38,367 bases of DNA from Patescibacteria group bacterium. Its GTDB lineage: Bacteria > Patescibacteriota > Dojkabacteria > JAKAPS01. The notes beneath the pieces were generated by a model. The model was given only the letters and a program-made list of their open reading frames with translations, did no database searches and had not been told where the DNA came from. Made by a program: the position numbers and the translations under genes. The stretch's first letter is position 1. The number at the start of each line of letters is the position of its first letter. The stretch lies in contig JANWIC010000009.1 in NCBI GenBank assembly GCA_025450075.1, forward strand, positions 1-38,367. The letters run 5' to 3'. Of this stretch, positions 6,688 through 21,279 are shown one piece after another.

Positions 6688-8070
6688 CTATCCCTTTATA
6701 AGCTTTACAATTTCTTCTAATTCATACCGTACTTCCTCATCAAGATGTCTTAAAGTTTCTATTTTATCGACCGCATGTATAACCGTGGTGTGATCTTTTC
6801 TATTTAGAATTTTAGCTACTTCTGTTAAAGGTAATTGCAATTCAGTTCTTAAAAGATACATCGCAACTTGTCTTGTAAAAGCAATTCTTTCTGTTCTCAC
6901 AGAGCTTTTTATTTCTTTCGGAGTGATATTATAATTCTCACAAACTGCAACAATGATATCCTGCGGCTTTATTCTTGCAGTTTTTTTTGTAATTTTTGGC
7001 CCGAGAATCTTTATTGCATCTTTAATAGTTATAACATCTTTTCCAAGTACGCCAAGACTTCCTAATTTCATAAGTACCCCTTCCAATTCTCTTATATTTG
7101 ATTGGTATTTCTGAGCAACAAACTCTAAAACATCCGGATTTATATGATAATTTTTTTCCTCACATTTTTTTTGAAGTATTGCAAGGCGTGTTTCAAATTC
7201 CGGTTTGTTAATATCTACCACCATTCCTCCTTCAAATCGAGATCGAAGTCTTGCTTCAAGAAAAGGCATATCTTCCGGCGGTCTGTCGGAGACAATAACG
7301 ATTTGTTTATTAAATTGATACATTGAGTTAAATGTATGGAAGATTTCTTCTTGAGTTCCTTTTTTACTTTCAATAAATTGAATATCATCAATGATAAGGA
7401 AACTTTTTTCTCGATATTTTCGTCTGAAATTATCAGCATTACCTGCTCGAATAGCACTGACCATTTCATTTAAAAATACTTCGCTTGAGCAATATACAAG
7501 TTTATATGAAGGGTTTTTTAAAAGTAAGTGGTTTGCAATAGCTTGTATTAAATGTGTTTTTCCCAATCCTACATCACCATAGATAAATAACGGGTTATAT
7601 GCAAATCCTGGGTTTTCTGCTACAGCAAGAGCAGCAGCATGTGCAAGTCGGTTTGATGCCCCTACAATAAAATTATCAAATGTATATTTTGGATTTATAC
7701 CTAAAAGTTGAGTTGATTGTATGTATTGTTGTTCATAACTTACTTGAGTAGCTTCCTCTAAACCTTTTTCATTGTCAAATAATGGTGAAGTATATCCAGA
7801 TTCTTTTTCTTTTTTATCAGGCTTTGGATTCACAATAATAGATATTTTTACACTCTTTCCAACAGATTTAGACAATGATTCTTTGATGATATCATAGAAT
7901 TCATTTTCAAAATATTCTCTAGCAATTTTATTTTTTACAGAGATAATTGCTTCCTCGTTATGAAAAGATTCAAGTGAAGAATTGCTAAACCATGCTTTAA
8001 AATGGGTTTTAGAAATGGCTAACTGAATATTCGCTAAGGCTTCGCGCCAAATCTCTTTCAGATCATCCAT
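6688..8070 (-). CDS. dnaA: Chromosomal replication initiator protein DnaA (start likely the internal Met of MDDLKEIW)
   Basis: NPLFIYGDVGLGKTHLIQAIAN, LIIDDIQFI, RNLEGVL-like IRELEGVLMKL, AMYLLRTELQLPLTEVAKILNRKDHTTVIHAVDKIE. The listed ORF extends to 8151, but the DnaA domain I-like start is at 8070. Confidence 0.96.
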   Translation of the reverse strand: MDDLKEIWREALANIQLAISKTHFKAWFSNSSLESFHNEEAIISVKNKIAREYFENEFYDIIKESLSKSVGKSVKISIIVNPKPDKKEKESGYTSPLFDNEKGLEEATQVSYEQQYIQSTQLLGINPKYTFDNFIVGASNRLAHAAALAVAENPGFAYNPLFIYGDVGLGKTHLIQAIANHLLLKNPSYKLVYCSSEVFLNEMVSAIRAGNADNFRRKYREKSFLIIDDIQFIESKKGTQEEIFHTFNSMYQFNKQIVIVSDRPPEDMPFLEARLRSRFEGGMVVDINKPEFETRLAILQKKCEEKNYHINPDVLEFVAQKYQSNIRELEGVLMKLGSLGVLGKDVITIKDAIKILGPKITKKTARIKPQDIIVAVCENYNITPKEIKSSVRTERIAFTRQVAMYLLRTELQLPLTEVAKILNRKDHTTVIHAVDKIETLRHLDEEVRYELEEIVKLIKG

Positions 8071-8104
8071 TGAATTTATAATGAGATGATCTAAATTAAC
8101 AAAA

Positions 8105-8113
8105 TGTGGATAA
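8105..8113 (-). promoter_or_regulatory. DnaA box (rc TTATCCACA) upstream of dnaA
   Basis: tgtggataa in the dnaA-RDD divergent intergenic region. Confidence 0.6.
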
Positions 8114-8194
8114 CTTTGCAACAAGGAGTAAGTAATCAACTTGAAGAGCATTATTTTTTAGTATACAATGAAATATATTACTATTTTCTAACAA

Positions 8195-8803
8195 ATGGCA
8201 TTTATCAAGGTTGGAGAAAATTCAGAAAATGCAGTACAAAAAACTCTCATACTAGGGAATATTGCAAGGCGATTTGCCTCGTATATTATTGATCTGCTTG
8301 TTGTGAATGTGCTTTTTCTTCTCATCATAAACCTGATAAATCAAATTTATACACTACCCTCTGTTCAATCATTTTATAATCAGACGGTTGGAAATAATGC
8401 TGGAAATACAACAATGAATGCAATTGCTGTTGAATTTTTATTTAGTTATCTATTTCTTCTTGGAGTCTATTTCTTCTTAATGCTACTAATTTTTAGCAAA
8501 ACACTTGGCATGATGGCAACTAATCTTGTATATGTATCATCAAATAATGAAGGAAACCCGGTTCCATTAAGTGTTCCTCAAAAATTCTTGCGAGGTTTTA
8601 TAGGTGAATTTTCAAGCATCCTATTTATCTTTGTTCCGATAATAGTATTTCCTTTTGATCAATACAGAAGATCACTAGTTGACAGAATATCAGGTGTATT
8701 TGTTATGCAAAAAGATAATGAGATGAGAAGGACTATAATAGCATATATCATTATTTTTGCATTTATTGCGCTCTACACTATTGTAAATTCCTTTATTCAG
8801 TAA
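8195..8803 (+). CDS. RDD family membrane protein
   Basis: GNIARRFASYIIDLLVVNVLF ... KTLGMMATNLVYVSSNNEGNPVPLSVPQKFLRGF ... DQYRRSLVDRISGVFVM matches the RDD family layout. Confidence 0.85.
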   Translation: MAFIKVGENSENAVQKTLILGNIARRFASYIIDLLVVNVLFLLIINLINQIYTLPSVQSFYNQTVGNNAGNTTMNAIAVEFLFSYLFLLGVYFFLMLLIFSKTLGMMATNLVYVSSNNEGNPVPLSVPQKFLRGFIGEFSSILFIFVPIIVFPFDQYRRSLVDRISGVFVMQKDNEMRRTIIAYIIIFAFIALYTIVNSFIQ

Positions 8804-8811
8804 GGAAAATT

Positions 8812-8840
8812 TTGCATTATGATTATTTTTATGGTAAACT
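8812..8840 (+). promoter_or_regulatory. Putative promoter TTGCAT-N17-TAAACT (with TG extension) for rpmH
   Basis: -35 8812-8817, -10 8835-8840, upstream of rpmH. Confidence 0.4.
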
Positions 8841-8862
8841 TCATCGAACTTAGCAAATTTGT

Positions 8863-9045
8863 ATGAAAAGAACGTATCAGCCTAAAAAAATTAGAACACT
8901 CAGAAAGCGCGGATTCTTAAAAAAAATGCAGTCAAAAGGTGGTAGAAGCCTACTAAAACGAAGAAGACTTAAAGGACGTACGCTCCTTACTGTTTCTGAC
9001 GAATTTAGAATAAAAGATAAAAAGCCTAATAATCGCAATAAGTAA
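8863..9045 (+). CDS. rpmH: Ribosomal protein bL34 with C-terminal extension
   Basis: MKRTYQPKKIRTLRKRGFLKKMQSKGGRSLLKRRRLKGR; followed by rnpA. Confidence 0.92.
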   Translation: MKRTYQPKKIRTLRKRGFLKKMQSKGGRSLLKRRRLKGRTLLTVSDEFRIKDKKPNNRNK

Positions 9046-9047
9046 CA

Positions 9048-9377
9048 ATGTTTCCCAAAAAGAACAGAATATCGACTGGGTTTAAAGCGATTTTACGGTC
9101 TGGCACGAAGATAAAAACAACGTATTGCCTGCTTATAGTTAAAGAGAACTATTGCCCCTATTCAAGATTTGGTATAATTACCACTAAAAAGATAGGAAAT
9201 GCTGTTATTCGGAATAAAGTAAGAAGATTTATTCGCAGTATTCTAAGGGAATATATTACTAGTATTCCTTCAGGCTTTGATATAGTTATAATTCCTTCAC
9301 AATTCATACCGGATTGGAAAAGGATCGATAAAAATGAGTTTAAAACTGTATTACTTGATGCATTAAAATCAATATGA
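9048..9377 (+). CDS. rnpA: Ribonuclease P protein component
   Basis: RFGIITTKKIGNAVIRNKVRRFIRSILRE (RNxxRR signature), position after rpmH. Confidence 0.92.
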   Translation: MFPKKNRISTGFKAILRSGTKIKTTYCLLIVKENYCPYSRFGIITTKKIGNAVIRNKVRRFIRSILREYITSIPSGFDIVIIPSQFIPDWKRIDKNEFKTVLLDALKSI

Positions 9378-10264
9378 TTATTCTTTCTCTCCTTGGCCTT
9401 ATCTGGAATACAATATTTTATCATCCAATTGTAAACTTAATAGTCCTGTCATACAAATTTACAGGCAATCTTGGATTTTCAATCATTGTCATTACGATTA
9501 TTGTCCGGTTGGTTCTATGGCCTTTAATGAAAAGTCAGATTGATTCACTAAAGAAAATGCAATCAATGAAACCAAAACTTGATGCACTTCGAAAAAAATA
9601 CAAAAATGATAAAAAAAAGTTTCAGGAAGAGCAGTTGAAATTGTATCGAGTTAGCGGTGTAAATCCTGCAGGAAGCTGTTTACCACTACTATTACAAATA
9701 CCATTTATCTATTCCGTATATAATGTCATTCGGGCAGTATCTCTTTCAAAAAATACTTCAGTATTCAATAATGTAGTTTATTCACATGCATTACAGTTAT
9801 CTTCTAAGACAAAATTCAATATGAATTTTTTTGGTATCAATCTTGCAAAAGATGCTGCTGGCGTTGGATTTAGTCATTTTAACGCAGTGCTTCCCTATCT
9901 TATTCTTGCACTTCTCGTTGGTATAACACAATATTTTGCTAGCAAAGTAAGTATGCCTGTAAATACGGCAGAGTTAACGGAAACTGTTGACATTATTGAG
10001 AATCCTAAAAAGAAGAAGAATGCAAAGACAATAGAAAAAAATGCTCCAAAGGCGAAAGATGAACCTCTGGATCCGGAACAGTTTAGCAAAATGGTATCTA
10101 GTCAAATGCTCTATTTTTTTCCACTTATATTAGTATGGATTTCATTAGGATATTCTGGATCTATTCCAGCTGCACTTAGTATCTACTGGATAGTTCAATC
10201 CCTAATGGTTGTTCTTCAAACTTTAATATTACAAGATAAAATACCATGGAAGAGAAAAAAGTAA
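9374..10264 (+). CDS. yidC: Membrane protein insertase YidC/Oxa1
   Basis: YKFTGNLGFSIIVITIIVRLVLWPLMKSQIDSLKKMQSMKPKLDALRKKYKND; PLLLQIPFIYSVYNVIR; ALSIYWIVQSLMVVLQTLIL; follows rnpA with a 4-nt overlap. Confidence 0.94.
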   Translation: MIILSLLGLIWNTIFYHPIVNLIVLSYKFTGNLGFSIIVITIIVRLVLWPLMKSQIDSLKKMQSMKPKLDALRKKYKNDKKKFQEEQLKLYRVSGVNPAGSCLPLLLQIPFIYSVYNVIRAVSLSKNTSVFNNVVYSHALQLSSKTKFNMNFFGINLAKDAAGVGFSHFNAVLPYLILALLVGITQYFASKVSMPVNTAELTETVDIIENPKKKKNAKTIEKNAPKAKDEPLDPEQFSKMVSSQMLYFFPLILVWISLGYSGSIPAALSIYWIVQSLMVVLQTLILQDKIPWKRKK

Positions 10265-10713
10265 ATCAAAAACAAATTCAAGAACTGATCGAACAGTTTA
10301 TTGATATAATTGGTTATGCAATTGATATTAACCTTGAGCCAGATGAAGAAAGCGGAGGGTATAAGGCACAATTAAATGGGGAGAATTTGGGGGTTTTAAT
10401 AGGGTATCATGGTAAAAATATATCTTCAATTGAGCATATTATAAATCTCATGATCGTTAGGAAGTATGGAATAGGAACCTTTGTTAATATTGATATCAAC
10501 GAATATCGTAAAGTCCGTCTTGATAATATAAAGAAATATGTAGAGTCTACTATAAAGAAGATTGAAAAAAGTCATGAATCATATACTCTTTATCCTATGT
10601 CCCCTTACGAAAGATTATTCGTTCACAAGCTTGTAAAAGAGCATGGAGAGCTTGAAACACTCAGTTCAGGAGAAGAACCAAATAGATCAATAACAATTAC
10701 TTTCAAGGAGTAG
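10246..10713 (+). CDS. Jag/KhpB KH-R3H RNA-binding protein
   Basis: LGVLIGYHGKNISSIEHIINLMI (KH), IDINEYRKVR, SPYERLFVHKLVKEH...EPNRSITI (R3H); follows yidC. Confidence 0.88.
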   Translation: MEEKKVNQKQIQELIEQFIDIIGYAIDINLEPDEESGGYKAQLNGENLGVLIGYHGKNISSIEHIINLMIVRKYGIGTFVNIDINEYRKVRLDNIKKYVESTIKKIEKSHESYTLYPMSPYERLFVHKLVKEHGELETLSSGEEPNRSITITFKE

Positions 10714-11533
10714 AATTTTGCTTTACCTGAAACAGAAGTTTCCAATCGTCCAAGGATAATTCTTGAGGTCTTTTTTGCAAAAGCAGTGCCACCTGGTTAT
10801 CAGTTGTATCAATTTTTATTGTATTTGAAAGTTTTTTTCTTGGGAATACGAAACTATCCTTGATAAAACGCGAGATTTTATCGGCATTTTCTAACTGCAA
10901 CGAATCTTCATAAGTATAATCGGTTATTGTCACGATTCGACTATCTACTTTTGGTATAGGATAAAATTCACCTTTTTTCAATATTTCTCCCTTTTTAATT
11001 CTTGCAAAAAGTTTGGATGAAACAGATAAGAATGATTCATCTGGAGCTTGTAAATCATATTTATCAGCCACTTCCCTTTGAAGTATGAATGTACAGCTAG
11101 ATGGGTGAGGGAGGAGATTCAGTGCCTTATGGACAATCGGTTTTGAAATATTGTATGGTAAAGCACCTATAAATTGATAATCAAGGGAAGCATAAAGTGA
11201 ATGTATTTCAAATGTAAGGATATCACCATGAATTATATCCACCCAAGCAGGATAAACACCATCATTAAATTTTGTAAGGGTTTCTTTTAAAAGAGGAATT
11301 TTTTCTTCATCCAACTCAATGAGAGTAACTTTTTTAAAATCTTTGAAATAATTAATTGTTATATTGCCAATACCTGGACCAATTTCAATTACATGGGGAG
11401 CAGATGACATGTTATCGATAAATGTTTTAATCCCATGTGCAGTTGTGAGGTAATTTTGACCAAGTTGATAGTGAAGCTGTTCACCATGGTTTGATAATAT
11501 CTCTTTAATTTCCTTTTTTGACAAAATGTACAT
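10703..11533 (-). CDS. rsmA: 16S rRNA (adenine-N6,N6) dimethyltransferase RsmA/KsgA-like
   Basis: LGQNYLTT, VIEIGPGIGNIT, GALPYNISKPI, LQREVADK, PIPKVDSRIV, FVFPRKKLSNTIK. The listed ORF starts at 11587; the Met at 11533 (MYILSKKEI) is the more likely start. Confidence 0.9.
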   Translation of the reverse strand: MYILSKKEIKEILSNHGEQLHYQLGQNYLTTAHGIKTFIDNMSSAPHVIEIGPGIGNITINYFKDFKKVTLIELDEEKIPLLKETLTKFNDGVYPAWVDIIHGDILTFEIHSLYASLDYQFIGALPYNISKPIVHKALNLLPHPSSCTFILQREVADKYDLQAPDESFLSVSSKLFARIKKGEILKKGEFYPIPKVDSRIVTITDYTYEDSLQLENADKISRFIKDSFVFPRKKLSNTIKIDTTDNQVALLLQKRPQELSLDDWKLLFQVKQNSTP

Positions 11534-11626
11534 ATACAAGATTATACGCAAAAAAAGGAATAAACAAAAGGATTTGGTAAGTAGCAATGAAAGATAAATT
11601 TAACAATCAATCAAATGTAGTAGCAA

Positions 11627-11929
11627 TTAATTTGCTAGAGGAGAAAATACTTCGTTATATGTATAGTGTGGAACTGTTGATGAAGAAGTATACAGTTGCC
11701 TATTTTGTCGATCTTTCAGGATTGAATTGTATAAAGAAGTATTGAATTGCGGAATAAGGGTAGCAGAGTTTGGTTGTGCTTGAGATGACGTATTTGTTGA
11801 TATATTTGTAAATATTGAAACAGTATAAATTATTCCAAAAACATTAGCTCCAGTAAATATTACAATCAATGTGATTGTAATTATTTGTAATAAATTGTCT
11901 TTAAAAGATGTTTTCTTTAATTCTTTCAT
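11627..11929 (-). CDS. Small membrane-anchored protein downstream of pilO-like gene
   Basis: One N-terminal TM segment; same operon spacing as the PilMN-PilO genes. Confidence 0.5.
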   Translation of the reverse strand: MKELKKTSFKDNLLQIITITLIVIFTGANVFGIIYTVSIFTNISTNTSSQAQPNSATLIPQFNTSLYNSILKDRQNRQLYTSSSTVPHYTYNEVFSPLAN

Positions 11930-11930
11930 T

Positions 11931-12560
11931 TTAAGATGTCTGTTTAGCTAAATCTTTTACAAAAAGATCAATTGTTATAGTTGATGTGACAGTTTGACTA
12001 ATATTTGCTGTCGGTGTTGGTGTAGGAATTGTACCCGTAGCATTACTACCATTTGTAGATTTAGTTGCAGAAAATGTTACCGCATCAATTCTTGTATAGT
12101 AATATGAATGGTTTAGCATATCAATAAATGCAAGTACTTGGTTATATTTTCCTGTTATTGTAAGGTTTGCATTGAGGAAAGGTGTATTCCCGCTTACCTG
12201 GGCCGGTACAAGAATATTATCTTTTGTTAATTCAGCATTAGTAAAGGTTACAGTTTCTTTAACTCCGATATCTCCTGCAATCGTTTCTAATTGCTCAACC
12301 CAATTTACTACAGTAATTTGGGATGGAAGTGAATCACTAAAATTGTTTTTTGTAAGATCTATTTTTTGAAATTTACTGATGACATCATCATTTATTTGAT
12401 TTGTAAGATTGGTATTATTAATATTATTTTGTGTATCAGAATAGTTTTGGACAGCTTTTCCAAGTACAGTTATAGAAATAGCAAAAATAATAAGTACTAA
12501 TAGAAAAACACTGCTATCCAATATATATACTTTGTTTATTTTTTTTGTAGTTACTTTCAT
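11931..12560 (-). CDS. PilO-like type IV pilus inner-membrane platform protein
   Basis: Single N-terminal TM, coiled/ferredoxin-like region (TVVNWVEQLETIAGDIGV...LTITGKYNQVLAFIDMLNHS), overlaps the PilM-PilN ORF stop (ATGA). Confidence 0.7.
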   Translation of the reverse strand: MKVTTKKINKVYILDSSVFLLVLIIFAISITVLGKAVQNYSDTQNNINNTNLTNQINDDVISKFQKIDLTKNNFSDSLPSQITVVNWVEQLETIAGDIGVKETVTFTNAELTKDNILVPAQVSGNTPFLNANLTITGKYNQVLAFIDMLNHSYYYTRIDAVTFSATKSTNGSNATGTIPTPTPTANISQTVTSTITIDLFVKDLAKQTS

Positions 12561-14125
12561 GATGCAGTCCCCTTTCCACTAATCTTATTAATAGTTGCAG
12601 TAATAGTAAAAGTGATTGATTGGTTTGTTTGTATATATGAAATTGGAAGTGCGAGATTACTTAAATATTTTGATTGATATTCTAAAATATTCAAGTACTG
12701 AAGAAGTGTATTTCTATCTTTTGCCGTACCCGATATACTGACAGTCCAATTTGATTTTGTCTGGTTAATGTTATAGGCACTTAATGATATACCGGAAGGT
12801 ACTGTAGTTGGAATTTCTTCTAGCAAACCAAGCCAATTGACAAATGAACTTTGTGCTCCGTTAATCTTTTGAAGATAAGAATTTTGAGCACTTATCTGCT
12901 GTCCCACTACTTTATATGTATTTTGACGAGGTGAAGAGATGATTGCTTGATATTTCTGGTTTAAATAATTCTGATCAATGATTAAAAAGAATATAAAAAC
13001 TGCGAATATGCTGATATAGGCAAGCATATTTATAGCAGCAATTCGCATCCAGAAAAACACCTTATCAGTTATCAATGTTCGGAGAATTTCTTTAGAGGCT
13101 TGAGCAGGTAGGAAGTTTATTGTACTTGGATCTTTTTGAGTATATTGCAAACCTGCTCCTGATACGCAAATATATTGGTCAATATCACTAGGTATTTTAA
13201 TAAAAGGAATCTTTAAATTCTGCATCTCCAATGCATTAGGTTCTGCAATTATGCTTTTTAGTCCTTTTATTACAGCGCCATCTCCGAAAATATATGCTTT
13301 TGTGATTGGACTTTTATTTTGAAAATGTATAGTTCTTTCCACCTCCTTTTGAAGAGGATCCATGATTGTGTGTATTTTTTCCTTTAATCGCTCATTTTTA
13401 AGATCAAGACCATTTTCTCTGAGAAGTTGTATGCTTTTATCATCGTCAACTTCAAAAAATTCATCGTATGCTTTGATTATTTGATTTAATCCAATATGTA
13501 CAGTTGAGGTAAATTTAATCGCATTTCCTTCTGATAATGCAACAGTAGTTTGTGTTTTTCCAATATCAAGAAGCAACGCATCTTCCTTTTGTGTGTAATT
13601 AATAAGACGCATAGCAGACATTGAACTGCCTTCAAAAGCAAGGGGAATAAATCCTGCACGTCTAACAGCATCATAATATGAATCTACTGTCTCTTTTGCT
13701 GCTGCAGAGATAAGAACATTTAAAGTCCCATCTTTATTCTCCGAGGTAACCAAAAAGTCCCAATATACCTCTTCAATAGGAAGTGGAATAAAGGTTTGGA
13801 TTTTAAACTGAATAGCTTCTTTTAATTTATCATGGGAAAGATCAGGAAAAACTCCTTCTTGCATATATATCTTATCATCCGGTATGGTACATACTGCATA
13901 ATTCTTCTTTCCTTTTTTATTTGGAAATTTATTCAAGCAAGCTTCAAGCGCATTGACGACATTATCGCTTTGGCGGATAACACCGCCAACAAGTGCACTG
14001 ACGGGAATTTTTTCTTCAGTAAATCCTTTTAAAACAAGACCTTTTCTTGTTTTAATGATTTCCGCTACTTTTACTGAGGAAGTTGAAATATCAACACCTA
14101 ATGAAGCAGCCTTTATTCTGATCAT
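12557..14125 (-). CDS. PilM-PilN fusion protein (type IV pilus platform)
   Basis: N-terminal SHS2/actin-like PilM region (LGVDISTSSVKVAEI, ALLLDIGKTQTTVAL, YIFGDGAVIKGL); then INFLP, a TM segment (AAINMLAYISIFAVFIFFLII) and a PilN-like periplasmic domain (NWLGLLEEIPTTVPSGISLSAYN...VSISGTAKDRNTLLQYLNILE). Confidence 0.85.
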   Translation of the reverse strand: MIRIKAASLGVDISTSSVKVAEIIKTRKGLVLKGFTEEKIPVSALVGGVIRQSDNVVNALEACLNKFPNKKGKKNYAVCTIPDDKIYMQEGVFPDLSHDKLKEAIQFKIQTFIPLPIEEVYWDFLVTSENKDGTLNVLISAAAKETVDSYYDAVRRAGFIPLAFEGSSMSAMRLINYTQKEDALLLDIGKTQTTVALSEGNAIKFTSTVHIGLNQIIKAYDEFFEVDDDKSIQLLRENGLDLKNERLKEKIHTIMDPLQKEVERTIHFQNKSPITKAYIFGDGAVIKGLKSIIAEPNALEMQNLKIPFIKIPSDIDQYICVSGAGLQYTQKDPSTINFLPAQASKEILRTLITDKVFFWMRIAAINMLAYISIFAVFIFFLIIDQNYLNQKYQAIISSPRQNTYKVVGQQISAQNSYLQKINGAQSSFVNWLGLLEEIPTTVPSGISLSAYNINQTKSNWTVSISGTAKDRNTLLQYLNILEYQSKYLSNLALPISYIQTNQSITFTITATINKISGKGTAS

Positions 14126-14185: not shown

Positions 14186-15601
14186 TTATCTGAGTATCTC
14201 TTTGATCTCGTCAAGAGTTACAGCCTTTAGCAATATTATTGCTAATAGATAGACTATTCCAGCAATTATTACTTGAATAAACAAATTAAATGGAGATAAA
14301 AAGGCTAATGCGAATGTAAATGCAACTGTAGCAAGTATTCCTTTTTTAATTATCGCAAAATTGGGGATCTGTTTCAAGATATAGAATACAACATATACCG
14401 ATCCAGCAAGTACTAAGGCTTCCGTGGCAACTGTAATCCATGCAGATGCATAGTAGGAATATCTTGGAATAAAGATAAGATTAAGAGAAATATTGAAGAT
14501 GGAAAGAAAAATATTCCATACAAGCAAATATGTTTGTTTTTTAAATAACAAAACAACAAAAATAAAAGAGGAACCTATAAAAGATAAAAAGATTGCAAAG
14601 GAAAGAATTTTAAGTATATCGACGGAATTTGCATATCTTGCTCCTACATATAGCGGAATAATTTTTTGACTTAAAAATAGTGCTCCAGGAATTATAGGAA
14701 GTCCGGCAAGTATAAGAAAATCAAGAGATTTTTGAAACATTCTGGTAAAATTTCCCATCTGTTCCTTCTTTATCTCAGATGCCATAAATGCAAATACCGG
14801 AGCCATAAACATTTGAGGAAATGCAATAAATACTTCTAATATCTTATAAGGGACAGCATAAATCGAAAGAACTGCAGCAGGTTTCATTAAAGAAAGAATA
14901 ACACTATCAGATTTAAAATATATACTGGAAAATAAAATCATTCCTCCAACACTGATTGATTGAGCAAAGACTTTTTTCCAAATGGCTCGATCAGGTGAGA
15001 AAGATATCCTCTTTAATGGCAAAACAAATAAAATAGACACAAGGAATATCACGAAATAACCAATGGTGGTTGCTGAAATCGCATAATCAATAGAAAGATG
15101 AAAATGGATAAAAATAATTAAAAAAAGTAAGTTTGCGATAAGTCCGGATGCATTTGCATAGACACTTTTTTGCATTTGTAATTTGTTTTGAAAAAGCGAA
15201 AAAAGCAGAGATGCCATAAGAAGGAAAAATGAAGAAGCGCTTGCAATCAATATTCCAATTTTTATAGCTGATGCATATTGTGGTATAAACTGGGCAATAA
15301 TAACTCCAAGGATAAGCGATATGATTAGTGAACATGCACGGATAAGAATAACATTCCCGATAAAGCGGGATTGTTCTTCATCGCTATATTCATGAATATC
15401 CCTTACAAGTATTGTTGAAAGCCCTAGATCTGCAAGTATATTAAAAAGTAATAAATAGGCAAATACTGCAGTATATTCACCAAATTCTGTTAATGAATAA
15501 TGATGGGTAAGTAAATAGACGATGACAAGATTGATAATTATTGAAATTATCTTACCGATTAACTGAACAAGAGTATTGAAGGCAACAGCTTTCTTTTTCA
15601 T
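14186..15601 (-). CDS. Polysaccharide/lipid flippase of the MOP superfamily (Wzx-like)
   Basis: VQLIGKIISIIINLVIVYLLTHHYSLTEFGEYTAVFAYLLLFNILADLGLSTILVRDI; 12-14 hydrophobic segments. Confidence 0.8.
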   Translation of the reverse strand: MKKKAVAFNTLVQLIGKIISIIINLVIVYLLTHHYSLTEFGEYTAVFAYLLLFNILADLGLSTILVRDIHEYSDEEQSRFIGNVILIRACSLIISLILGVIIAQFIPQYASAIKIGILIASASSFFLLMASLLFSLFQNKLQMQKSVYANASGLIANLLFLIIFIHFHLSIDYAISATTIGYFVIFLVSILFVLPLKRISFSPDRAIWKKVFAQSISVGGMILFSSIYFKSDSVILSLMKPAAVLSIYAVPYKILEVFIAFPQMFMAPVFAFMASEIKKEQMGNFTRMFQKSLDFLILAGLPIIPGALFLSQKIIPLYVGARYANSVDILKILSFAIFLSFIGSSFIFVVLLFKKQTYLLVWNIFLSIFNISLNLIFIPRYSYYASAWITVATEALVLAGSVYVVFYILKQIPNFAIIKKGILATVAFTFALAFLSPFNLFIQVIIAGIVYLLAIILLKAVTLDEIKEILR

Positions 15602-15622: not shown

Positions 15623-16948
15623 TTACGGATTTTCATACCACTTTGTCGAGTGTACATAACTGGATGGGAAATTAAATCCGGTTATAGTGTCAATATACGT
15701 TGAATCATATGTCAAGACGTCATAATTATACAGATTTATTTGATTTGTTGCCCACGCTCCGCCAATAATTGTAGTAATATTTCCTGGATTTAATCCATAG
15801 CTATTTATCGTTCCATTTGCAAATACAAGTCCATTGAGTGTAACTTTAACATCATTTGAAGTTGCTGAAAGCAGGTACATATCACCATTCGTCGCAAGAA
15901 CTGGGTACTCATTACCACCTGTTTGGTAGGGGGAAGATATATTAATACCCCCTAAATCAATAAATGAAGCATTTACAATTATTGACACATTTGTTCCGGT
16001 AATATTTGTTTGATTACCGCCACTGTCGATAAAACTGTAAATGTATGGAATACCTGAACATCCATTACAATCTACAAAATATATTCCTGATGGAAGATTA
16101 TATGTGACAACCCCACCTGATACAGTTCCGATGGAAGCTAAATAACTCGTAAATTGTGTCGGATTTGAATAATATGTCCCGTTTTGCGTTGCAAGAGTTT
16201 GTGCTTGAGTAAAGTTAAAAGTTGGAGTCGCAATTGGTGGAAGGAATGAATTCCCCTGCTTTGTTTGACTTCCAGTTACACTACTTGATCCGTCAATATG
16301 AAGACTTGTATGATAGAAAACATTTCCATTAATTTTTGTATTGTTTTGCAGCCATGTTGGATCCCATGATTCCATATTTCCACCTGATCCGTGATAAGGG
16401 TTAATAGTTGAGCTATCGATTATTGCCTTTTGACCATTTCCTTTTCCCGCAGCATATAAATCACCATTTAAAGTTGATCCTGTGATATTTAAATCATTAT
16501 TTGTAAATATTTCTCCATTTAAAGTTGAATTATTAATATACATATTGTTTACAGCAAATCCTGCTTTGTTTAAAACGGCAGGAGGTGCGGTAATACTAAA
16601 CACGGCAGTTTCACTTCTTCTAACCCCCTTGTAGGTCGCTACAGAGGTTACCGTGAGGTTGGGAGAGGAGTAGGATTCTGTGATAGTTGCATTTCCGATG
16701 GGAAGAGTGAAAGTCCCGTTATATGTAACATTACTTTGGTCAAATTCATAAATGGCATTATCTATTCCTGCTTCTGCAATTTCTAATGCCTGTTGATCAT
16801 AATTATCATAAACTCCCTGTGAATATTCTGTTATTGCAATAAAGAGCTCGGACAAGGTGATAGTCATCATAACTGTGCATAAGATAATCACAGCTATTAT
16901 TGTCATTTGCCCATTTTTATTGTTGTCTTTGTGCAGCAGTTGTTTCAT
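15623..16948 (-). CDS. PilX-like minor pilus/surface protein with repetitive beta-rich region
   Basis: N-terminal TM (GQMTIIAVIILCTVMMTITLSELFIAI) followed by AEAGIDNAIYEFD as in PilX-type proteins, and a repeat-rich region (NMYINNSTLNGEIFTNNDLNITGSTLNGDLYA). Start may be 16960. Confidence 0.6.
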   Translation of the reverse strand: MKQLLHKDNNKNGQMTIIAVIILCTVMMTITLSELFIAITEYSQGVYDNYDQQALEIAEAGIDNAIYEFDQSNVTYNGTFTLPIGNATITESYSSPNLTVTSVATYKGVRRSETAVFSITAPPAVLNKAGFAVNNMYINNSTLNGEIFTNNDLNITGSTLNGDLYAAGKGNGQKAIIDSSTINPYHGSGGNMESWDPTWLQNNTKINGNVFYHTSLHIDGSSSVTGSQTKQGNSFLPPIATPTFNFTQAQTLATQNGTYYSNPTQFTSYLASIGTVSGGVVTYNLPSGIYFVDCNGCSGIPYIYSFIDSGGNQTNITGTNVSIIVNASFIDLGGINISSPYQTGGNEYPVLATNGDMYLLSATSNDVKVTLNGLVFANGTINSYGLNPGNITTIIGGAWATNQINLYNYDVLTYDSTYIDTITGFNFPSSYVHSTKWYENP

Positions 16949-17423
16949 AATGAGTCGCATTTGTAGAATTCGTACTACTTTGCTGAATATCTAATTTTAT
17001 ATTAATACTTGGTGAGATACCAGCTTCTGATTCAACTTCATATACAACATTTTTAACATAAATATCCTGCGATGATAAAGGGAAGATTTGGTTACTTCCA
17101 ATCTGTTTATATATTACTCCATTGCTGAAAGTATATTGCACAGTATTGTTATTTATATCAATAAGTGTAAGAGAATTTGAAGTTGCATTTACTGAGTTTG
17201 GATTGGAAATGTTTGAAGTTTCTTCAACATTCTGAGTTATATCTCTAAGTAGTGCTCTTGCATTTTCATTCTCTCTTGCAATTACCTGGATACGAGTTTG
17301 GTTATACACGACTTGTTGTAGAATGCCAGAAAGATCAACAAGGATAATAGCACTGATAGTAATGTATAATATGAGTTCTACAAGCGTTGTTCCCCTATTG
17401 TCTTTAATAAGTGTTCTTTTCAT
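16917..17423 (-). CDS. Type IV prepilin-like protein (PilW/PulJ-like)
   Basis: NRGTTLVELILYITISAIILVDLSG class III signal; start ATG at 17423 overlaps the stop of the upstream gene. Confidence 0.8.
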   Translation of the reverse strand: MKRTLIKDNRGTTLVELILYITISAIILVDLSGILQQVVYNQTRIQVIARENENARALLRDITQNVEETSNISNPNSVNATSNSLTLIDINNNTVQYTFSNGVIYKQIGSNQIFPLSSQDIYVKNVVYEVESEAGISPSINIKLDIQQSSTNSTNATHYETTAAQRQQ

Positions 17424-17923
17424 TAGAATGGCTGCCAATCTGAAAGATAGCTTGTTAAGTTCATAGAATATGTTGTTCCGAATGATACCCAGGAAACTGT
17501 ATAAATGATTTTTCTCATAGCATTATCAATAGTTCCCGAACTATCACTCAGTTGTTGATTATTAACTCTATATGGCGTGGAAATTACCATCGAAACAGTA
17601 AACCCGTTTCGTACTCCAGCCCCTGGGAATAATTGCCATCCTTGATAGATTGACGGGGGATTTGATGTTGGATTATATGAAGCGTAATATGTTCCAGGAG
17701 TAAGATCAACCCAGGTCTCATTTCGAACTTGGCGTACTGCTTCTTCTTGTTCCCATAAGTATCCTTCTGCTTGAAGACGCTGTTTAGCGATTTCAGTTGA
17801 TCTGACAGCAGGGAATATTAATGACAATGATCCTGTGAGTAATATCATCAAAACAGATATGGAAATAAAAACTTCAATTATGCTGACACCTCTATTGTTT
17901 TGTAAGATAGATAGCTTTTTCAT
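17423..17923 (-). CDS. Type IV prepilin-like protein (PilV/PulI-like)
   Basis: NNRGVSIIEVFISISVLMILLTGSLSLIFPAV class III signal. Confidence 0.8.
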   Translation of the reverse strand: MKKLSILQNNRGVSIIEVFISISVLMILLTGSLSLIFPAVRSTEIAKQRLQAEGYLWEQEEAVRQVRNETWVDLTPGTYYASYNPTSNPPSIYQGWQLFPGAGVRNGFTVSMVISTPYRVNNQQLSDSSGTIDNAMRKIIYTVSWVSFGTTYSMNLTSYLSDWQPF

Positions 17924-18387
17924 TGAATTGTATCGCTCCCTGATGGTGATAATTTTACTGTTTTTGTCCCTCTTTTTGATGTTATTGTAATTGTTCCGTC
18001 ATTTGATGCGGTTGCATGTGGACTAGTGAAATAGAACCAATTATTGGAATTAAATCCTGACCAGGTTATGGTAACATCATTTGGAATTGTAATTGATGTG
18101 ACAATTGTGTTGCTACCATTATATGTTGATCCCGCATAAACTTGTATTTTATGAGCAGCAAGAACTAATCCATAATTAGTTGTGTTATTATAATGAACCA
18201 ATGTATAGTCTCGAGCGGTTTCTAGAGCAGTTGAGATGTTGTGTAAAGAAGTATTGTAATCAGCACTTGCAAGAAAATATATGGCTCCATATGTGGATCC
18301 GAGAGCAAGTATTGCTGTAATTGCTGTTACAATAATGATCTCTATAAGTGTAAAGCCGTTTTTTTTCCTATTTGCTTGATATTCCAC
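17920..18387 (-). CDS. Type IV prepilin-like protein (GspH/FimT-like)
   Basis: KKNGFTLIEIIIVTAITAILALGSTYGAIYFLASADY...ISTALETARDYTLVHY. Confidence 0.85.
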   Translation of the reverse strand: MEYQANRKKNGFTLIEIIIVTAITAILALGSTYGAIYFLASADYNTSLHNISTALETARDYTLVHYNNTTNYGLVLAAHKIQVYAGSTYNGSNTIVTSITIPNDVTITWSGFNSNNWFYFTSPHATASNDGTITITSKRGTKTVKLSPSGSDTIQ

Positions 18388-19582
18388 TGGTTAGCTGATA
18401 AATAGGGGTAATGACAGATAGAGCAATAAACAAGGTTGCTCCTCCCATGATAAAAAGCATAACCGGCTCGATAATAGTTGATATATTTCCTAAAGTTTCA
18501 TTTACTTGATTTTGATAAAAATCTGCCACGTTAAAAAGCATATCAGGAGTTGTTCCAGTCTTATCTCCGACTGCAACCATACGGATTGATAAGTTAGTAA
18601 ATAATTTAGGTTCATGTTGCATTACAACAGATAACGCGTCCCCCTTTTCAACTTTGTCTTTAAATGCAAAGATAGCTTTAGAATAAATATAATTTGGGGA
18701 AGAATCAGATACAATCTCAAGCGATTTTCCTATTGGAACACCACTTCGTAAAAGACTTCCCAAAGTACGGGCATATATTGCCATATTTAACCTATGATTA
18801 ATTGGCCCGATAATAGGTAAATGAAGCATTAATTTATCATAATGCTTCCTAAAATAATCCTTCCGTCTAACTTTTTTGAAAGTAATATAGCCTGTAATTA
18901 ATACTATGATAATTAACAGGATGTCATTACGTAAAAAATTACTAATTCCTATAAGTATTTGGGTTGTAATAGGGAGTTGTAAGCCTGCTTGGACAAAAAA
19001 AAGACTAAGTTGTGGTATAACAAATACTAGTAAGCCTGCTCCGGCAAAAATCATGATACTGAAGAGGATTTCAGGGTAAATTAATGCACCTTTTACTTTT
19101 GCCCTCAATTCATAATCTTTTTTTACCTGAGTTGAGATTTGTTTAGCACTTTCTTCTAATGATCCTCCAATTTCTCCAACCTCAATGACCTTTACGAAAA
19201 GATGTGGAAAAACTTCTGGATACTTTCCCATACCTTTTGATAAAGTTTCTCCTGTTTCAATACCATATTTCAAATCCTCGATAATCTTTTGAAAATATTT
19301 GTTCTCAGTGTCATCTTTCAAAGCATCAAGTGTTTCGGTTACACTTAAACCTGCCTTTAACATTTGTGCTAAATGATCGAAGAATACAACTTTTTCGATC
19401 ATCTTTACTTTCTTTTTACCAAAAAGTTGGAAATCTTTTTTTTCAATGACCTGTTCAAGATTTAGAACTGTTAACCCCTGATCTTTAAGAAGCTTCTCGG
19501 CTTCTTCTCGGGTACTGGATCTGATCGTTCCATTATCAGTCTGACCTTTTCCTTTTGTTATTGTATATTTAAAATTTGCCAT
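18368..19582 (-). CDS. pilC: Type IV pilus inner-membrane platform protein PilC/GspF
   Basis: FFDHLAQMLKAGLSVTETLDAL, VIEVGEIGGSLEESAKQIS, YARTLGSLLRSGVPIGKSLEIV, MVAVGDKTGTTPDML. Confidence 0.93.
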   Translation of the reverse strand: MANFKYTITKGKGQTDNGTIRSSTREEAEKLLKDQGLTVLNLEQVIEKKDFQLFGKKKVKMIEKVVFFDHLAQMLKAGLSVTETLDALKDDTENKYFQKIIEDLKYGIETGETLSKGMGKYPEVFPHLFVKVIEVGEIGGSLEESAKQISTQVKKDYELRAKVKGALIYPEILFSIMIFAGAGLLVFVIPQLSLFFVQAGLQLPITTQILIGISNFLRNDILLIIIVLITGYITFKKVRRKDYFRKHYDKLMLHLPIIGPINHRLNMAIYARTLGSLLRSGVPIGKSLEIVSDSSPNYIYSKAIFAFKDKVEKGDALSVVMQHEPKLFTNLSIRMVAVGDKTGTTPDMLFNVADFYQNQVNETLGNISTIIEPVMLFIMGGATLFIALSVITPIYQLTSGISSK

Positions 19583-21279
19583 TATTCTTTTGTAACTCGA
19601 AGTACTTCTTCAATTGATGTAATTCCTAATTTTGCTTTGCGAAGACCGTCTTCTTTCATAAGCGTTAATCCATTTTTAATAGCTTCTTCCATGATTTCTC
19701 CTGCATTAGCTTTTCCAGTAATGAGTTCTTTTACTTTTGGTGTAACTTCAAGAACTTCATAAATTCCAATTCTCCCTTTATATCCGTTATTACATTGTGG
19801 ACATCCAACTGGTTGAAAGAATTCATTTTCATCAATGATTTTTATCACATTTTTTGAGCCCATTTGTATTTCATTTTTAAACAATTCGACTAATGTCTTC
19901 TTTGAATCATTGTCTAAAGAAAGTGGTTTTTTACAGCTGGTACAAAGCTTTCTTACCAAACGTTGGGCAACTACAATATTAAGAGTTGATGCAATAAGAA
20001 ATGGTTCAATATGCATATCAATTAGACGTGGAATTGCACCTGCACTATCATTTGTATGTAGCGTAGATAATACTAAATGTCCAGTCATAGCAGCATTGAC
20101 TGCAATATCAGCCGTTTCTGAATCTCGGATTTCTCCTACCATGATAATGTTAGGATCTTGTCGTAAAAATGCTCGAAGACCAGAAGCAAAAGTTAACCCG
20201 ATAGGAGGATTTACCTGCATTTGATTCACCCTAGGCATAGAGTATTCGATTGGATCTTCAACCGTATTAATATTAACTTCAGGTGTGTTTAAGATGCTGA
20301 GAATTGTATATAACGTAGTAGATTTACCTGATCCCGTTGGACCAGTAACCAGAATCATACCGTTTGGCCTTTTTATGTTATATGAAACAGTTTCTAAGTC
20401 TCGTTCTGATAATCCAAGATCTGAGAGATTAAATTTACGTGCGCTGTCTTCAAGAAGCCGCATAACAATTTTCTCTCCATAAAAAGTAGGGATTATTGAG
20501 ACTCGAAAAGAGATTTGCTGATCATTTATATTGATTTTAAATCGTCCATCTTGAGGAAGTCGGTGTTCATCAATTTTAAGGTTTGCAAGAATTTTAATCC
20601 TAGCGATAACAGGAATATATACATCTTTTGGTATTGTTACTACATCATGCAGCACTCCATCTACACGGTATCTGATAATCGATTCGTATTCCAAGCTTTC
20701 CATATGAATATCGCTGGCTTCTTCAGTAATTGCATTTTCAAGGATTAAATCAACCATTTTAATAATTGGAAGACCGATATTATCATCTCCTTTTCCATTC
20801 CCTATTGCTTGTTTGGATTCATTTACATGCTTTTCAATAATCGTTTGGAATTCTTCCCGAATACCCGTTGTATATCGTTTTAAAAGGTCACGGAATTGCT
20901 TTTCGGTGATATAATAGATTTCAACATTATATCCAGTACCCTTTTTAACAAATTCAATTGCTCGTAAATCAGTGGGATTTACCATTCCAATTTTTAAGGA
21001 ATAGGGAGTCTTTTCAAAAGGAATAACTTTCTTTTCAATTGAAACATCTTTAGGAAGTATTTTTAAAATATCAGGATTGATCTCTTTTTTAGTGAGGTTT
21101 ATATATGGAACACCCATTGTTTTTCCGATTATTTCTCCTAACGTATCTTCAGAAATATATCCTTTGGAAATGATGATGTCCATGATATCAGAATGCAACT
21201 GATTTGCAGTTCCAAGCGCTTCTTCATATTGTTGAGAAGTAACAACATTATTATGGATGAGGATTGTTTTAAGATCCAT
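19582..21279 (-). CDS. pilB: Type IV pilus assembly ATPase PilB/GspE
   Basis: Walker A GPTGSGKSTTLYTIL, Asp box VEDPIEYSMPRVNQMQV, Walker B FLRQDPNIIMVGEIRDSETADIAVNAAMTGHLVLSTLHTNDSAGAIPRLIDM; CTSC/CPQC zinc motif. Confidence 0.96.
   Translation of the reverse strand: MDLKTILIHNNVVTSQQYEEALGTANQLHSDIMDIIISKGYISEDTLGEIIGKTMGVPYINLTKKEINPDILKILPKDVSIEKKVIPFEKTPYSLKIGMVNPTDLRAIEFVKKGTGYNVEIYYITEKQFRDLLKRYTTGIREEFQTIIEKHVNESKQAIGNGKGDDNIGLPIIKMVDLILENAITEEASDIHMESLEYESIIRYRVDGVLHDVVTIPKDVYIPVIARIKILANLKIDEHRLPQDGRFKININDQQISFRVSIIPTFYGEKIVMRLLEDSARKFNLSDLGLSERDLETVSYNIKRPNGMILVTGPTGSGKSTTLYTILSILNTPEVNINTVEDPIEYSMPRVNQMQVNPPIGLTFASGLRAFLRQDPNIIMVGEIRDSETADIAVNAAMTGHLVLSTLHTNDSAGAIPRLIDMHIEPFLIASTLNIVVAQRLVRKLCTSCKKPLSLDNDSKKTLVELFKNEIQMGSKNVIKIIDENEFFQPVGCPQCNNGYKGRIGIYEVLEVTPKVKELITGKANAGEIMEEAIKNGLTLMKEDGLRKAKLGITSIEEVLRVTKE

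Follow-up and report, generated by a model that had tools for sequence, protein, structure and literature searches.

A fused PilM-PilN protein with an internal docking peptide, encoded in a type IV pilus locus without PilT in a Dojkabacteria-class Patescibacterium

Why would a pilus locus encode PilM and PilN as one polypeptide and still keep the peptide through which the two otherwise meet? PilM and PilN are usually separate proteins, joined via a short docking peptide. In the 38,367-nucleotide stretch of contig JANWIC010000009.1 analyzed here (the window), which comes from a Dojkabacteria-class Patescibacterium, both lie in a single reading frame (Table 1). We read the product as the one-polypeptide PilM-PilN inner-membrane component of a second type IV pilus locus that lacks PilT, with the peptide docked most likely in its own groove, and we consider this reading as a whole probable.

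The original prediction of a single 522-residue ORF composed of PilM, INFLP, a transmembrane (TM) helix and PilN is borne out: its coordinates and motif are exact, and both Pfam domains score above their curated cut-offs (PilM_2, PF11104, 91.2 bits versus 27; PilN, PF05137, residues 434-512, 30.9 bits versus 22.8). TIGR01175 reaches 127.8 bits, slightly below its own cut-off of 133, and phmmer matches the PilM part to PilM crystal structures, with PilM of M. xanthus, T. thermophilus and P. aeruginosa among its hits. The cytoplasmic INxLP peptide ahead of the TM helix is present as INFLP, and no T2SSL or GspL_C domain is found among the Pfam matches of the protein. The C-terminal part is PilN-like, as proposed. 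An AF2 model of these 138 residues (pLDDT 66) matches P. aeruginosa PilO in Foldseek (E 0.002, prob 1.0) and the periplasmic domains of PulL, XcpY and EpsL (TMt 0.64-0.69, E 0.04-0.4); because of these matches, the objection that this part is something other than PilN falls away. The protein thus has the exoplasmic ferredoxin-like fold of PilN, PilO and GspL, at moderate model confidence and with modest E-values.

Table 1. Features of the fused PilM-PilN gene and its pilus locus (positions in the window)
Feature	Position	Strand	Basis or remark
Fused PilM-PilN (PilMN), 522 aa	12557..14125	minus, 14125 -> 12557	ATG start
PilM (SHS2/actin-like) domain, residues 10-299	13229..14098	minus	Pfam PilM_2 8e-26; Foldseek to 5eou, 2ych
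Linker QYTQKDPST, 9 residues, from GAGL (PilM end) to INFLP	13121..13147	minus	mean column conservation 0.47
INFLP, internal PilN-type docking peptide, residues 336-340	13106..13120	minus	mean column conservation 0.82
Single TM helix, about residues 356-384	12974..13060	minus	Kyte-Doolittle scan 356-374; AF2 helix 341-396
PilN-like exoplasmic domain, residues 385-522	12560..12973	minus	Pfam PilN 2.9e-7; Foldseek PilO, PulL, XcpY, EpsL
Probable PilO, 209 aa, 4-base overlap with fusion	11931..12560	minus	position and size; nine-member profile vs 3jc8
Small single-pass membrane protein, 100 aa, after pilO	11627..11929	minus	counterparts (78-109 aa) lie after pilO at most fused loci
PilC platform protein	18368..19582	minus	Pfam T2SSF 8e-52
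PilB extension ATPase	19582..21279	minus	TIGR02538 3e-177, below that model's own cut-off
Three pilin-like genes (17920-18387, 17423-17923, 16917-17438)	16917..18387	minus	N_methyl, strong for first only

Could an assembly error or frameshift have joined two genes? Nothing was found in its favor; we regard this as practically negligible, and it is already refuted, because a homologous single ORF occurs in all nine genomes of the same family or order that were searched (G001-G009, 29-33% identity), as well as in two further families of the class. Within the class, PilMN fusions are found in 14 of 86 genomes, that of G018 being interrupted by contig ends. Elsewhere in Patescibacteria they occur in at least seven genomes (G224, G238, G264, G287, G295, G369 and G406), a count that is a lower bound for the group. 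G425 was dropped from the list, its C-terminal domain being SH3 rather than PilN. A search of viral contigs gave no relative. The fusion is old in the order, real and functionally readable.

How did it arise? A PilM tree of 52 rows, from which long branches were left out and in which the direction of change was not inferred, requires at least three changes between split and fused genes; its starred branches force three and its bootstrap trees give three to four. This tree places the fused gene of G264 within a split-gene clade (support 100/98). It supersedes a quick tree of 71 rows that gave five changes, with long branches unsurely placed. In several split pairs the two genes are neighbors and share a frame, with 0, 3, 6 or 9 bases between the pilM stop and the pilN ATG; an in-frame search supplied part of these examples, so they carry no frequency. 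Since such pairs exist, loss of one stop codon could create a fusion, and this would be its most likely origin.

Joining PilM to PilN is in itself already known elsewhere. PulL and EpsL have been described as natural PilM-PilN fusions (PMC10191384, PMC6325625), and GspL/PulL/EpsL resemble the window protein in joining PilM-like and PilN-like parts in one chain with a single TM helix, and in belonging to a machine that has no PilT. E. coli GspL differs in having Pfam families of its own, T2SSL and GspL_C, and no INxxP at the junction, whereas in the window locus PilM_2 and PilN occur together with pilin-like genes. Among clostridia, C. difficile has a PilM-PilN fusion (PMC6916266, citing Melville and Craig 2013), and this protein and that of Alkaliphilus sp. 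B6464 likewise carry PilM_2 and PilN in one type IV pilus chain; the junction of the Alkaliphilus protein, unlike ours, lacks INxLP, and a PilT-family gene lies near the Alkaliphilus fusion. Most Campylobacterota type IV pilus clusters also hold pilM and pilN in one gene, but within pilMNOPQ clusters with a PilQ secretin (PMC11870540). T4P-2 of the Saccharibacteria member TM7x is likewise a second pilus locus of a Patescibacterium without a retraction ATPase, yet pilM2 and pilN2 are listed there as separate genes (PMC12206443). None of the open-access papers found names the fusions in Patescibacteria. What is new is the peptide kept inside the fusion, the repeated occurrence in Patescibacteria and the placement in a PilT-less pilus locus; the retained peptide sets the window fusion apart from GspL of E. 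coli and from the clostridial PilMN of Alkaliphilus.

What machine does the fusion serve? The window brings together PilB, PilC, PilMNO and pilins, as expected of a type IVa locus; neither GspD nor GspC was seen among the genes examined. The PilO candidate alone has no Pfam match, and a profile built from nine such equivalents matches M. xanthus PilO in 3jc8 (E 0.0012). The small protein encoded after pilO, for which no family match passes its cut-off, may be an extra subunit of the pilus type that has the fusion. Other neighbors deserve mention. A polysaccharide flippase-type gene (Polysacc_synt, 14186-15601) on the same strand separates the fusion from the pilin-like genes. Beside the pilus genes, the segment 21295-24380 encodes a putative Ig-domain protein together with a sortase and an extracellular solute-binding protein, which are unusual neighbors for pilus genes. 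In both the window (6688-12560) and G001 (L038), the fused locus adjoins apparent ksgA, jag, yidC, rnpA and dnaA genes, named from sequence reading, and is therefore possibly near the replication origin.

The same genome carries a second type IV pilus locus, in which the genes are split. On contig C19, separate genes encode PilN (183 aa, MSNTINLLP…), PilO (228 aa) and PilM (343 aa), together with a prepilin peptidase, PilC, and linked PilB and PilT. A PF00437 search of the genome found no PilT linked to the window locus; the only PilT-like ATPase found adjoins the split locus. This division recurs in a set comprising the window genome and 20 others: PilB adjoins PilT in 13 genomes, in 12 of them on the same contig as split PilM, and in 17 the fused locus has a single PilB nearby on its contig with no PilT beside it, the contig of the remaining fused loci having no such ATPase. 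A rule that fusion occurs only where PilT is absent holds for linkage in the Patescibacteria examined and was rejected as a general one, given the PilT-family gene of Alkaliphilus. In architecture, the second pilus of these ultrasmall bacteria, lacking PilT, is nearer to the type II secretion system than to a twitching pilus.

Every fused genome of the class also carries a split PilM. Does the fusion then serve to insulate one machine from the other? Five genomes, G238, G287, G295, G369 and G406, have no strong PilM other than the fused one, their remaining matches (about 420 aa) looking like FtsA. They contradict insulation from a second PilM as a general reason, so it is not the whole reason for fusion.

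The peptide itself is the best-kept part of the junction. The pattern [IVLM]N-x-x-P stands between PilM and the TM helix in 20 of 21 fused PilMN proteins, compared with its occurrence anywhere in 3.5% of shuffled fused proteins. In a 12-row alignment, mean column conservation is 0.44 after the motif and 0.56 overall, against the higher value of the motif itself (Table 1), and N337 and P340 are each present in 11 of the 12 fusions. The spacing from GLxL to INxxP is 9-12 residues across the fusions and 10 in PDB 5eou. In that P. aeruginosa PilM:PilN1-12 construct an equivalent join was engineered (GLALRSFD, a linker and MARINLLP); unlike the window protein it is man-made and has neither a TM helix nor a PilN ectodomain. 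It is also the window protein's best fold match. From an alignment of just eight sequences, AF2 gave a model of the whole protein with a mean pLDDT of 75.5 and a pTM of 0.60, in which the motif block (residues 331-340) averages about 55 and residues 328-334 fall below 50. Its top Foldseek match is 5eou_B. The two structures of PilM with a PilN peptide, 5eou and 2ych, give target-normalised TM-scores of 0.74-0.77 and 0.77, respectively, versus 0.63-0.65 for PilM without it. The predicted fold agrees with the PilN-bound conformation of PilM, the peptide itself not being placed by the model.

Where, then, does the peptide dock? Most likely it docks in cis, fixing PilM:PilN at 1:1, which is plausible because the junction geometry nearly equals that of 5eou. 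The main rival, to which we give a real if minor chance, has the peptide dock in trans into a neighboring PilM, so that the tether forms a daisy-chained PilMN ring under the membrane. A short linker would suit such a neighbor as well, and PilM rings have been proposed for type IV pili (PMC6916266, PMC8389850); against this, a nearly equal linker length worked in the single chain of 5eou, where docking may be cis or swapped. The linker length may, moreover, simply come from the split-gene layout. It is improbable that the peptide is a passive remnant, docking having become superfluous after fusion: 20 of 21 fusions keep it, with at least three split/fused changes among them and identities of 22-33%, and its conservation is well above that of its flanks. 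On the remnant's side are E. coli GspL and Alkaliphilus PilMN, which lack the peptide, and G001 of the same family (L006:1429-2934), a fusion with a fast-evolving PilM that has lost INxLP and shows NIYFQV near the aligned place. Since G001 retains the fusion without the motif, docking has been dispensable at least once.

A different account of the kept junction would have an internal start yield free PilN besides the fused product. The window has a candidate at 13129-13160, an in-frame TTG that lies ten codons ahead of INFLP and has AGGAG five bases before it, but among 18 genes a Shine-Dalgarno-like site with a start near the junction recurs only in G008, plus a more distant one in G264. A dual product was rejected on this lack of conservation, and we think it very improbable.

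Under cis docking, the PilM part would lie in the cytoplasm with INFLP about nine residues past its fold, and the peptide would fold back into the PilM groove, most likely that of its own chain. One helix would span the membrane and the PilN part would pair with PilO outside. The fusion would give each PilN a PilM, in the way GspL does for type II secretion, the kept peptide would preserve the PilN-bound state of PilM, and this state may be coupled to PilB. Assembly economy, fixed stoichiometry and possibly insulation from the second pilus machine would be the benefits.

Does a tethered PilN constrain models in which PilM exchanges partners? The original prediction held that it would. PilM and PilN are indeed genetically 1:1, but a new constraint was overstated; the idea is just partly supported because fused systems were known before and the locus lacks its own retraction ATPase. 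Lacking PilT, the window machine is a poor test of an extension-to-retraction switch, and PilB binding by the fused PilM could continue as the peptide docks and undocks. The kept peptide provides a natural tethered PilM-PilN contact, for which the same genome offers a matched split system and G001 a motif-less relative, and the question whether pili need PilN to leave PilM therefore becomes askable.

The peptide is also kept beside other ectodomains. In G425 (L126:1501-3096) PilM, INLLP and a TM helix are followed by an SH3 domain (E 5e-12), a non-PilN ectodomain, and in G350 (L147:852-3116) PilM, VNLLP and a TM helix precede a weak baseplate-J-like match (E 0.007). Two other long PilM-TM proteins (L092:414-2774 and L093:4651-6906) lack INxLP. 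We tentatively suggest that in Patescibacteria the PilM groove and a tethered INxLP may form a reusable intramolecular switch, fused repeatedly to PilN, also to SH3-type and possibly to baseplate-J-like ectodomains, in which cis docking would control PilB binding in machines without a linked retraction ATPase; we hold this speculative and rather unlikely.

Two minor observations may be added. The PilM-TM proteins of L147, L092 and L093 are 750-786 residues long, and two of them have weak baseplate-J-like matches. Orphan PilN-PilO pairs without PilM occur in L094 (5675-6881) and L096 (5872-7061) and also in L095, L097, L098 and L099; in L094 and L096 the pair is flanked by genes resembling ychF (a GTPase) and rpoB, both named by reading, with N-terminal INLLN or INLLH instead of INLLP.
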